64,000 nt of DNA from Secundilactobacillus angelensis (GTDB lineage: Bacteria > Bacillota > Bacilli > Lactobacillales > Lactobacillaceae), in contig NZ_JAAXLJ010000004.1 in NCBI RefSeq assembly GCF_012641075.1, positions 1 to 64,000 on the forward strand, written 5' to 3'. The position numbers and the translations under genes were made by a program. Positions 18,535 to 43,462 of the stretch are shown one piece after another. The notes beneath the pieces are model-generated. The model was not told the DNA's origin and did no database searches. It saw only the letters and a program-made list of their open reading frames with translations. The number at the start of each line of letters is the position of its first letter. The stretch's first letter is position 1.

Positions 18535-18797
18535 TGATAAGCAAATGCGTTAATGAGGACAACGTTAATACACCTTAAGCGAGTTCGGTTAGGTGTAAGC
18601 GAACAATCGTATTAACAAATCACCTCTAAGCATCTTTGACGAACGATAATTAGTAATCAAAGGCGGAGTCAATCTCCGATACCAACTTGGATCTGTGTTT
18701 GCAGATCGTAAGTTTCGTTTGGTGACGAACGGAAAACATAAAGGTGGTAACGCACACGTGCCCTTTAAGTCAGAAATGGCTTGAAGGGCTTTTTTGC
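18535..18797 (+). promoter_or_regulatory. T-box riboswitch leader, probable Ile specifier
   Basis: A tRNA-sensing leader. The T-box core AAGGTGGTAACGC is at 18741-18753, followed by the terminator helix with GCCCTTTAAG pairing to CTTGAAGGGC and a T run. Stem I is seen as GTTAATAC paired with GTATTAAC; below it the 3' side of the internal loop reads AAATCACCTC, in which ATC followed by A is the best specifier codon (isoleucine). Thr (ACC) is a weaker reading. It would switch on the downstream reductase when charged tRNA-Ile is scarce. Confidence 0.8.
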
Positions 18798-26128: not shown

Positions 26129-26165
26129 AGTTCATTCCTCCTCATTATTGCAACTCATCAGTGAA

Positions 26166-26330
26166 CACTACCTGGTCAGACCAACAAAAAACACCAGGGA
26201 CCACGATGTCCGCTGGTGTTTTAACCAGCCAGACAGCCCAAGCGTTTCGCCTAGCTGTCTGACCAGTAGTGCAAGTGCCATGCCAATAGCAACTTCTCTA
26301 ACTTACTGGTTGATAGCCAGGCTGGTTAAA
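26166..26330 (-). promoter_or_regulatory. Alternative pairing segments of the Phe attenuator
   Basis: On the minus strand, TTTAACCAGCC (26320-26330, the last Phe codon onwards) is fully complementary to GGCTGGTTAAA (26220-26230), which abuts the terminator. Nested inside are ACCAGTA with TACTGGT, and CAGACAGC with GCTGTCTG. A second choice pairs 26257-26271 with 26166-26181 (15 pairs, one bulge), across the terminator. A ribosome stalled on the Phe codons would cover the first segment. Confidence 0.6.
26185..26222 (-). terminator. Attenuator terminator in front of the APC permease
   Basis: 10-bp stem AAAACACCAG/CTGGTGTTTT followed by six T on the minus strand, about 55 bp before the permease start and after the leader peptide stop. 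Confidence 0.85.
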
Positions 26331-26378
26331 GAAGAAGAAAAATCGCTGTGAAGTTGAACTTAAACGATTAATTAGCAT
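26298..26378 (-). CDS. Phe-rich leader peptide (26 aa)
   Basis: ATG 26378 to TAG 26298, too short for usual ORF calls. Residues 13-17 are five consecutive Phe (codons TTT TTC TTC TTC TTT at 26328-26342) within SQRFFFFFNQPGYQPVS. It has its own AAGGGAG site 9 nt upstream and a consensus promoter. The layout (promoter, peptide, alternative hairpins, terminator, permease) is that of classical translational attenuation, as at E. coli pheA. Expression itself is inferred. Confidence 0.75.
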   Translation of the reverse strand: MLINRLSSTSQRFFFFFNQPGYQPVS

Positions 26379-26410
26379 GATATGGCACTCCCTTCTGTGT
26401 TAATGAGAGT

Positions 26411-26439
26411 ATTTTAACAATATAATGAGAAAAGTGCAA
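26411..26439 (-). promoter_or_regulatory. Promoter of the leader peptide/permease unit
   Basis: Minus strand TTGCAC, 17-bp spacer, TAAAAT, ending about 33 bp before the leader ATG. Confidence 0.75.
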
Positions 26440-26478: not shown

Positions 26479-27429
26479 TTAATCCAACTCGACATCATGG
26501 TTGCTGTTTAGCGAACTGGACTGCATACTGCGAGCTCGCCCTCTTTGCAATAGATAGATGGCAATCACCACTAGAGCTGATCCAAGCACTTCAACCCAGC
26601 TGATTTGCAGACCTAGAAAAACCACACTCAAAATAAAGGTGACCACCGGCTGAGCAGCATCAACAATACTGATGACGTCAGAGGGTGCATAGTTACTACT
26701 GATCAACAATAGGCAAAACGGTAAAATGGTTCCCAGAACGATCACCGTCAGCATGGATAACACTAAGTCAGTCGTTATCAGCGGGGTATGGACCCAGACT
26801 GGCTGATGCAAATTGAATAATAGCCCTGAAATTAACGTTCCCCATCCTAATATGAGAATCGGTGACCCACCAGCCTTAACAATCGGCCGCGGTAACGTCA
26901 CGTAAAAGGCGGCCGTAATGCCGGAGCCAATCCCCCAGAATAAGGCGTCTAGCGGAATTGCTAACTGCGACACATTGCCCTTAGTAATCGCTAAGAATAC
27001 GCCTAGCATTGAGACCACAAAGGCGATCAGATCACTGCGATAAGGCACTTCATGTTTAAAAATTAAACTACCAACTACGATAAACAATGGGCTGAGATAC
27101 TGCAAAATTGTTGCTGACGCTGCGTTACCTGTCTGCACCGACATGTAAAACGTCAGTAAATTGGCACTAAGGCCAAAAACTGCATAGGCAAAAAGTGAAC
27201 CGACTAATCGCCACGATTTGAAGGCTTCAAAAAGATGACCTCGAGACGTGAACGCCCCAATAATCATCAGTACCACACCGGCACCAAAAGTCCGCGCCGA
27301 TAAAAACCAAGCAGCCGGAATATGCTGATTTTGTGAAATATACTGCAACACAGTCCCGGAAATCCCCCACATCATCGATGCAAGCAGAGCTAACATAATT
27401 CCTCGTGTAACGTGACTTTTACTCGTCAT
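26479..27429 (-). CDS. DMT-superfamily (EamA) transporter
   Basis: 316 aa, ten transmembrane helices in two EamA repeats (first repeat SMMWGISGTVLQY..., second ...VDAAQPVVTFILSVVFLGLQISWVEVLGSALVVIAIYLL). The proline and glycine pattern SPLFIVVGSLIFKHE of the first repeat end is clear. Exports amino acids or metabolites in relatives. ATG with GGGAGAATGG upstream; transcribed alone. Confidence 0.87.
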   Translation of the reverse strand: MTSKSHVTRGIMLALLASMMWGISGTVLQYISQNQHIPAAWFLSARTFGAGVVLMIIGAFTSRGHLFEAFKSWRLVGSLFAYAVFGLSANLLTFYMSVQTGNAASATILQYLSPLFIVVGSLIFKHEVPYRSDLIAFVVSMLGVFLAITKGNVSQLAIPLDALFWGIGSGITAAFYVTLPRPIVKAGGSPILILGWGTLISGLLFNLHQPVWVHTPLITTDLVLSMLTVIVLGTILPFCLLLISSNYAPSDVISIVDAAQPVVTFILSVVFLGLQISWVEVLGSALVVIAIYLLQRGRARSMQSSSLNSNHDVELD

Positions 27430-43225: not shown

Positions 43226-43462
43226 ATAAAAAATCGCCCCCATTGCATTATTGCAACAGGGACGATCAGACTCTACCGTGGTACCACCCAAATTGTGCAC
43301 ATCACTGTACACCACTCACCAGAAGATAATGGATTCTAGCGGTAACCATTGTCGATGTCTACGTATTTCGTCAACTTTATCCTGATTGGCTCGCAGCAAC
43401 CGCCAACTTCCTGACGCCCAGATAAAGTGCTACTTGTTTGTAAGTCCGACATTAAATATTAA
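43226..43462 (-). promoter_or_regulatory. T-box riboswitch leader, probable Tyr specifier
   Basis: Minus strand TGGGTGGTACCACGG (T-box core, complement of 43275-43290) followed by the terminator ATCGTCCCTGTTGCA-ATAA-TGCAATGGGGGCGAT with T6. Stem I uses ACTTTATC/GATAAAGT; the 3' loop below it reads TGACGAAATACG, with TAC followed by a purine as the likely specifier. Confidence 0.85.

Follow-up and report, generated by a model that had tools for sequence, protein, structure and literature searches.

What controls the BcaP-like amino acid permease gene on the minus strand of the 64,000-nucleotide stretch of Secundilactobacillus angelensis DNA analysed here (the window), in a genome that reads tRNA charging mostly through T-boxes? 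The initial annotation saw a leader peptide with Phe codons, mutually exclusive helices and a terminator ahead of the permease, and this core interpretation holds. We put the probability at about 0.8 that the region is a ribosome-mediated attenuator of transcription sensing charged tRNA-Phe; Phe as its signal is well supported. This is a testable and well-delimited case of peptide attenuation, and it sits in an unusual place, with a leader that would control a transporter rather than a biosynthetic operon. The features of the locus are collected in Table 1.

Table 1. Features of the leader region and the permease gene in the window
Feature	Coordinates	Strand	Basis or remark
-35-like hexamer TTGCAC (weak)	26434..26439	-	By eye
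Extended -10 TGTTAAAAT	26411..26419	-	Sequence
Leader-frame Shine-Dalgarno AAGGGAG	26394..26388	-	Sequence
P1 5' strand, Shine-Dalgarno end and start codon region	26371..26389	-	Pairs with 26274-26287
Leader peptide frame, 26 codons and stop	26378..26298	-	ORF listing; sequence MLINRLSSTSQRFFFFFNQPGYQPVS
Five Phe codons	26342..26328	-	Last three invariant in 36/36 leaders
Strand 1 CUUCUUUAAC (Phe codons)	26325..26334	-	1:2 helix, 97% of cells paired, 20 leaders
Strand 1b GCCUGGCU	26315..26322	-	Pairs with 3a for read-through
Strand 2	26293..26310	-	ACCAGUA 26310-26304 and GUUAGAGAAG 26302-26293, the latter pairing with strand 1
P1 3' strand	26274..26287	-	Fold, 36 leaders
P3 hairpin 3:4, anti-antiterminator	26223..26268	-	90.8% of cells paired, 7 pairs double-changed
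Strands 3 and 3a	26249..26268	-	UACUGGU 26268-26262 and AGCUAGGC 26256-26249
Strand 4 UGUCUGGCUGGU	26224..26235	-	4:5 helix, 84.7% of cells paired
Intrinsic terminator 5:6 with T run	26222..26186	-	97.3% of cells paired, 9 pairs double-changed, 20 leaders
Strand 5 ACCAGCGGACA	26207..26217	-	Terminator 5' arm and loop side
Strand 6 (terminator)	26202-26186	-	Part of 5:6
Permease Shine-Dalgarno AGGAGG	26137..26142	-	By eye
BcaP-like APC amino acid permease, 470 aa	26128..24716	-	PF13520, PF13906; NF053761 below cut-off

The 26-codon frame, its own AAGGGAG motif and the five consecutive Phe codons are present on the minus strand where the initial annotation had placed them. An alignment of relatives had been proposed as the refuting test, and the frame and a Phe run are kept in all 36 leaders found (35 distinct sequences). 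Each has an open leader frame and a purine-rich, Shine-Dalgarno-like stretch before the ATG, the leaders having been selected by pattern. Three consecutive Phe residues (FFF) occur in 36/36 leaders, followed by Asn in 29 and by Lys in 7, and preceded by N in 18, F in 9, S in 7, Y in 1 and G in 1. The run of five that had been taken as the conserved feature occurs in only 7 leaders; two have a run of four and 27 a run of three. The N-terminal part of the peptide differs widely between genera while FFF is constant. Among the leader codons the Phe run is the sole invariant part; Leu, Ile and Val codons show no conserved run.

Within our first alignment (A1, 12 leaders), every gap between the ATG and FFF is three bases long. 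A run of five TTY triplets occurs once in the window against an expectation of 0.04, and 4 of 100 shuffles contain one. In collinoides and in genome G005 (leaders L010 and L012) the leader stop codon lies 15 bases further downstream, a shift that passes through strand 2 and still keeps the RNA helices; the position of the stop thus appears to be free within limits. As strand 1 is codons and helix at once, conservation of this strand alone is no proof of Phe sensing.

The leader transcript folds at -93 kcal/mol (z -6.3), and none of 200 shuffles folded as well. Three helices make up the terminating state: strand 1 with strand 2, the latter lying at or beyond the leader stop codon; strands 3 and 4, which form the P3 hairpin; and strands 5 and 6, which form the terminator, located ahead of the permease as claimed. 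Over 20 leaders, this set (1:2, 3:4 and 5:6) has 94.2% of its cells paired and 19 pairs changed on both sides (double-changed), against at most 53.9% of cells paired in slid controls. Given 12 Secundilactobacillus leaders, RNAalifold chose the terminating set together with P1, a helix that involves the leader start codon.

A second set, [1b+2]:[3+3a] and 4:5, excludes the first. Strand 1b lies just after the Phe codons, and 3+3a is the 5' arm of P3. In the window GCCUGGCU pairs with AGCUAGGC and ACCAGUA with UACUGGU, and elsewhere the read-through pairing takes other letters (GCCUAGC with GCUAGGC in malefermentans; ACCCAGU with GCUGGGU in graminis). Over the 20 leaders, 85.0% of the cells of [1b+2]:[3+3a] are paired versus at most 42.3% when slid, with 7 pairs and 28 cells changed on both sides. 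For 4:5 the values are 84.7% and at most 58.5%, with 3 pairs and 8 cells double-changed. The read-through helices exceed column shuffles, which ignore the relatedness of the leaders, in paired cells, double-changed cells and score; their counts of double-changed pairs and of pair types are no higher than in these shuffles. Given 27 leaders from the three genera, RNAalifold settled on 1b:3a and the terminator without prompting, and 11 of 19 pairs were double-changed. The fragment from 1b to 3a has at least 8 long-range pairs in 36/36 leaders, and at most 2 of 200 shuffles fold as well in each of the 20 leaders (z -3.2 to -6.7). In 7 of the 20, 4:5 folded in isolation does not stand out from its shuffles. 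All 20-leader sets, for helices, shuffles, masks and energies, exclude the leaders of the third genus (see below). The mutually exclusive helices described by the initial annotation are thus backed, in both sets, by complementarity and covariation, which supports a six-strand scheme in which 1:2, 3:4 and 5:6 would bring termination and [1b+2]:[3+3a] and 4:5 would bring read-through.

The antiterminating partner that had originally been pointed out is a different one. A perfect complementarity of 11 bases does exist in the window (26330..26320 with 26230..26220), but as an antiterminator it is not conserved across the leaders: 65.5% of its cells are paired against a shuffled mean of 65.4% and 50.8% when slid by one column, and the pairing was rejected in this role.

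Energies were computed as summed parts, which omit the pairing of strand 4 with parts of strand 6. By these sums, as long as strand 6 has yet to be transcribed, read-through pairing is ahead of 3:4 in 18 of 20 leaders (by 0.5 to 13 kcal/mol) and is disfavoured in two Latilactobacillus leaders (+0.5 and +1.4 kcal/mol); with strand 6 present, the terminating state is the more stable in 20/20. In whole-leader folds with a ribosome mask, malefermentans and oryzae were the only ones, among the lines listed for the 20 leaders, to reach an antiterminated optimum, and of the stalls only those at the first or second of the three invariant Phe codons produced it. The oryzae leader had such an optimum also when the mask covered nothing but the sequence before the Phe run, with no stalled ribosome. 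When the Shine-Dalgarno region was left unmasked (8 leaders), the folds listed kept the terminator, the one exception being malefermentans stalled at the first invariant codon. Energies alone fail to predict read-through after the terminator is complete, so the switch would be decided during transcription.

We propose that the attenuator works as follows. With sufficient Phe, the ribosome would pass the Phe codons and reach the stop codon, with strand 2 covered or paired with strand 1; 3:4 would form, strand 5 would be free, and the terminator 5:6 would halt transcription before the permease. When charged tRNA-Phe is short, the ribosome would stall on the Phe codons and cover strand 1, and 1b+2 would pair with 3+3a. 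Strand 4, released in this way, would pair with strand 5, the terminator would come too late, and the permease would be transcribed. In a leader that is left untranslated, 1:2 would form and transcription would stop.

The helix P1 may add to this scheme. In 34/36 leaders the optimum fold pairs two or more of the three bases of the start codon with the segment that separates strands 2 and 3; in the other two, one start-codon base and 9 of 10 bases of the Shine-Dalgarno region are paired. Compensatory P1 changes are found in the Secundilactobacillus leaders L010-L012. By folding the leader Shine-Dalgarno and start codon onto the 2-3 segment, P1 would probably limit re-reading of the leader afterwards. 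If these signals are buried once the 2-3 segment has been transcribed, only the pioneer ribosome would read the Phe codons and the decision would be taken once per transcript; we put forward such a one-shot attenuator as a tentative idea, somewhat against the odds. With its 3' strand placed in the loop that the read-through helix encloses, P1 can coexist with that helix only as a pseudoknot; it crosses the helix topologically, so leaders that go untranslated would also be held in the terminating state by it.

Three covariance models, each broader than the last (R1, R2 and R3), matched 15, 22 and 38 of 397 Lactobacillaceae genomes. The leader stands ahead of a related permease in 36 of these 397 genomes: 14/15 of Secundilactobacillus, 6/6 of Latilactobacillus (a name taken from two named members with identical leaders) and 16/16 of a third genus with genomes of 1.2-1.6 Mb. 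R1 found four of the six Latilactobacillus cases, and the remaining two came by eye and by R2. R3 was trained on 27 leaders, which match it by construction; nine third-genus genomes lay outside the training set. A DNA search detected the leader in 12 of 100 genomes, its own included, all of them Secundilactobacillus, and a class-wide R2 scan of 398 genomes returned its own genome and one chance match only. In the latter (G070, E 0.0017) no listed frame of at least 80 aa resembles an amino acid permease.

Some further matches were set aside. Those in G058 and G317 (R3, E 0.006 and 0.013) have no FFF run at the site and no permease in the stretch and are ascribed to chance. The match in G028 (R2, E 0.08) and a second match in G336 (E 0.96) were likewise counted as chance and dropped from the tally, and a second match in G038 (L112, E 0.048) was left out of the tally of 36. 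At E<=1, R3 found no leader in 68 related permease loci without it, and R1 gave none below E 0.4 at other named permease loci. The one Secundilactobacillus genome without the leader (G011) has only a 67% relative, which groups with the paralogs.

The gene downstream is an APC permease, as the initial annotation had it, with matches to PF13520 and PF13906. A BcaP-like permease follows the leader in 36/36 cases, and the association persists where the upstream gene differs. The score against the BcaP equivalog NF053761 is 617.4 bits, under the curated cut-off of 690, and the closest solved relatives by sequence, 5oqt and 6f34, are named only as amino acid transporter. A permease tree of 54 rows, picked from named and unnamed loci, places the 19 rows with a leader in a single clade (100/97). 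In a quick-method tree enlarged by the third genus and all 80 named loci to 92 rows, 25 of them with a leader, one change is still enough, at a weak support of 63. One gain of the leader would be enough to account for its distribution over the permease tree, and the leader therefore offers a Phe-linked functional clue for a BcaP-like subfamily that is otherwise known only through its similarity to BcaP.

Several related loci differ in their arrangement. Secundilactobacillus has a permease paralog, 65-68% identical, without the leader by R3 (G000:C48:34887-36281 (L119), L063, L070, L074, L088, L094 and L107), and no T-box was found near the paralog loci L118 and L119. In Secundilactobacillus silagincola (L030:1638-2848), an insertion with two TnpB-like frames (IS200/IS605 type, by eye) sits between leader and permease, just after the leader-side Shine-Dalgarno, and represents a natural uncoupling of the switch. 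The spacer between terminator and permease is longer in two Latilactobacillus loci (L114 and L115), at ~240-340 bases, with apparent repeats (by eye).

The consensus promoter of the initial annotation did not stand up in the window. Its candidate, TTGCAC-17-TAAAAT with TG before the -10, has by eye only 8/12 consensus matches, which about half of the shuffles reach, and a promoter scan of the window listed no site there. Promoters nearer to consensus, at 10-12 of 12 matches, occur in ten of the 20 leaders, where the -10 ends 31-35 bases ahead of the ATG; six third-genus leaders that were checked have 7-9 of 12, at varying distances.

These promoters bear on one alternative, a plain intergenic terminator of the upstream EamA gene with everything else due to chance. 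That gene (26479-27429) does lie on the same strand as the leader, but the explanation is extremely improbable: a near-consensus promoter separates upstream gene and leader in half of the 20 cases, the alternative helices covary, and the permease association persists under other upstream genes. A structured RNA that acts without translation, such as a riboswitch or a protein-bound terminator in which the frame is incidental, would fit the large conserved structure and its strong fold without a ribosome. We think it very unlikely, as the frame, the Shine-Dalgarno and the start codon are kept in 36/36 leaders over three genera, the A1 gaps before FFF are all of three bases, and no known RNA family matches. 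Translation could also matter in another way, with FFF[N/K] acting as a nascent-chain arrest peptide that stalls the ribosome alone or with a small ligand, irrespective of tRNA charging. The presence of this short motif in 36/36 leaders is what such a peptide would predict; the wide differences between genera in the peptide before FFF, and the constraint that the 1:2 helix also places on the last Phe codon and the Asn/Lys codon, make it a distinctly unlikely account.

The cargo of the permease is harder to assign than the signal of the attenuator. Attenuators usually sense the amino acid whose supply they control, and the Phe run is the only one that is invariant among the leaders, with no Leu, Ile or Val run beside it; both points speak against a different cargo. 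The same attenuator could nonetheless serve a permease for other amino acids (branched-chain, methionine), with Phe as a mere proxy of supply. This has an appreciable chance of being right, though one below even. BcaP is the nearest family (617 bits against 690), the cargo of APC permeases is not settled by sequence families, and Lactococcus BcaP takes up mainly branched-chain amino acids and also methionine, according to the cited part of its description (PMC7058034). Because this nearest characterised relative takes mainly branched-chain amino acids, we only infer that the permease takes up Phe. Sensing of charged tRNA-Phe by a translated leader is the preferred reading in either case.

The two T-boxes that the initial annotation had noticed in the window are both present, at 18541-18768 (+; 67 bits, E 2e-12) and 43255-43443 (-; 62 bits, E 5e-11); they fall under the Rfam cut-off of 93, are unlisted at the gathering cut-off and were found at E<=1. 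At E<=1e-4 the whole genome has 41 T-box (RF00230) matches, and one of its genes matches prephenate dehydratase; a permease with a Phe leader peptide is thus the exception in this genome. Two T-boxes lie near this pheA-like gene, with specifier codons that allow no safe reading. Nine permease loci that lack the leader showed no T-box; one of them, L041, is masked over part of its upstream region. A simple pattern had overlooked one of the window's two T-boxes, so the absence of T-boxes ahead of related permeases is taken from those nine loci. A search of the leader against the 4227 families of Rfam 15 gave no match at E<=5, T-box and RF01743 included. A T-box or other known Rfam family was thus rejected as its identity, and the leader represents an RNA family absent from Rfam 15. 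A search of the open-access literature, with subscription papers outside its scope, found no paper on this leader.

Leader-peptide attenuation is a mechanism long known from E. coli. The his operon attenuator of E. coli and Salmonella has six strands, which pair as A:B, C:D and E:F or as B:C and D:E. The leader described here resembles it in its run of the sensed amino acid and in the six-strand alternation; the his attenuator differs in that it senses His, belongs to a biosynthetic operon and comes from another phylum. The pheA and pheST leaders of E. coli share the Phe codons in the leader peptide, but these systems of Proteobacteria control biosynthesis and a tRNA synthetase, not uptake.

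Other systems offer partial parallels. The Leu/phe leader RF01743, listed for Lactococcus lactis in the cited part of a survey (PMC2864571), is a leader-type RNA too; it comes from the same order and carries Leu or Phe in its name, whereas the present leader has no match to its Rfam model at E<=5. In Staphylococcus aureus, a T-box-using Firmicute, attenuation of ilv-leu by a leader peptide has reporter support, and the same passages name predicted leader peptides of branched-chain synthesis for Lactococcus lactis and Streptococcus (PMC5794164, in part). The S. aureus leader likewise combines peptide attenuation with a T-box-using host, but has Leu codons and precedes a biosynthetic operon. A predicted uORF with Phe and a terminator, uORFC-13-1, lies before Acholeplasma aroF (PMC8632094, in part); unlike the present leader, it belongs to a biosynthetic gene and is credited there with at least one Phe only. 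A statement from 2005 held that no Firmicutes aminoacyl-tRNA synthetase gene was known under classical attenuation (PMC1262725, in the part cited). T-box leaders (RF00230) are the usual sensor of tRNA charging in this genome, although the leader has no T-box match, and Phe T-boxes control an NSS transporter in the B. cereus group, as stated in an excerpt of PMC2494555. In bacilli, the His leader peptides ahead of hisZ and of a hisS paralog (PMC2965389, in part) likewise present a leader peptide in place of a T-box in Firmicutes; they differ from the leader described here in sensing His and in serving the tRNA synthetase family.
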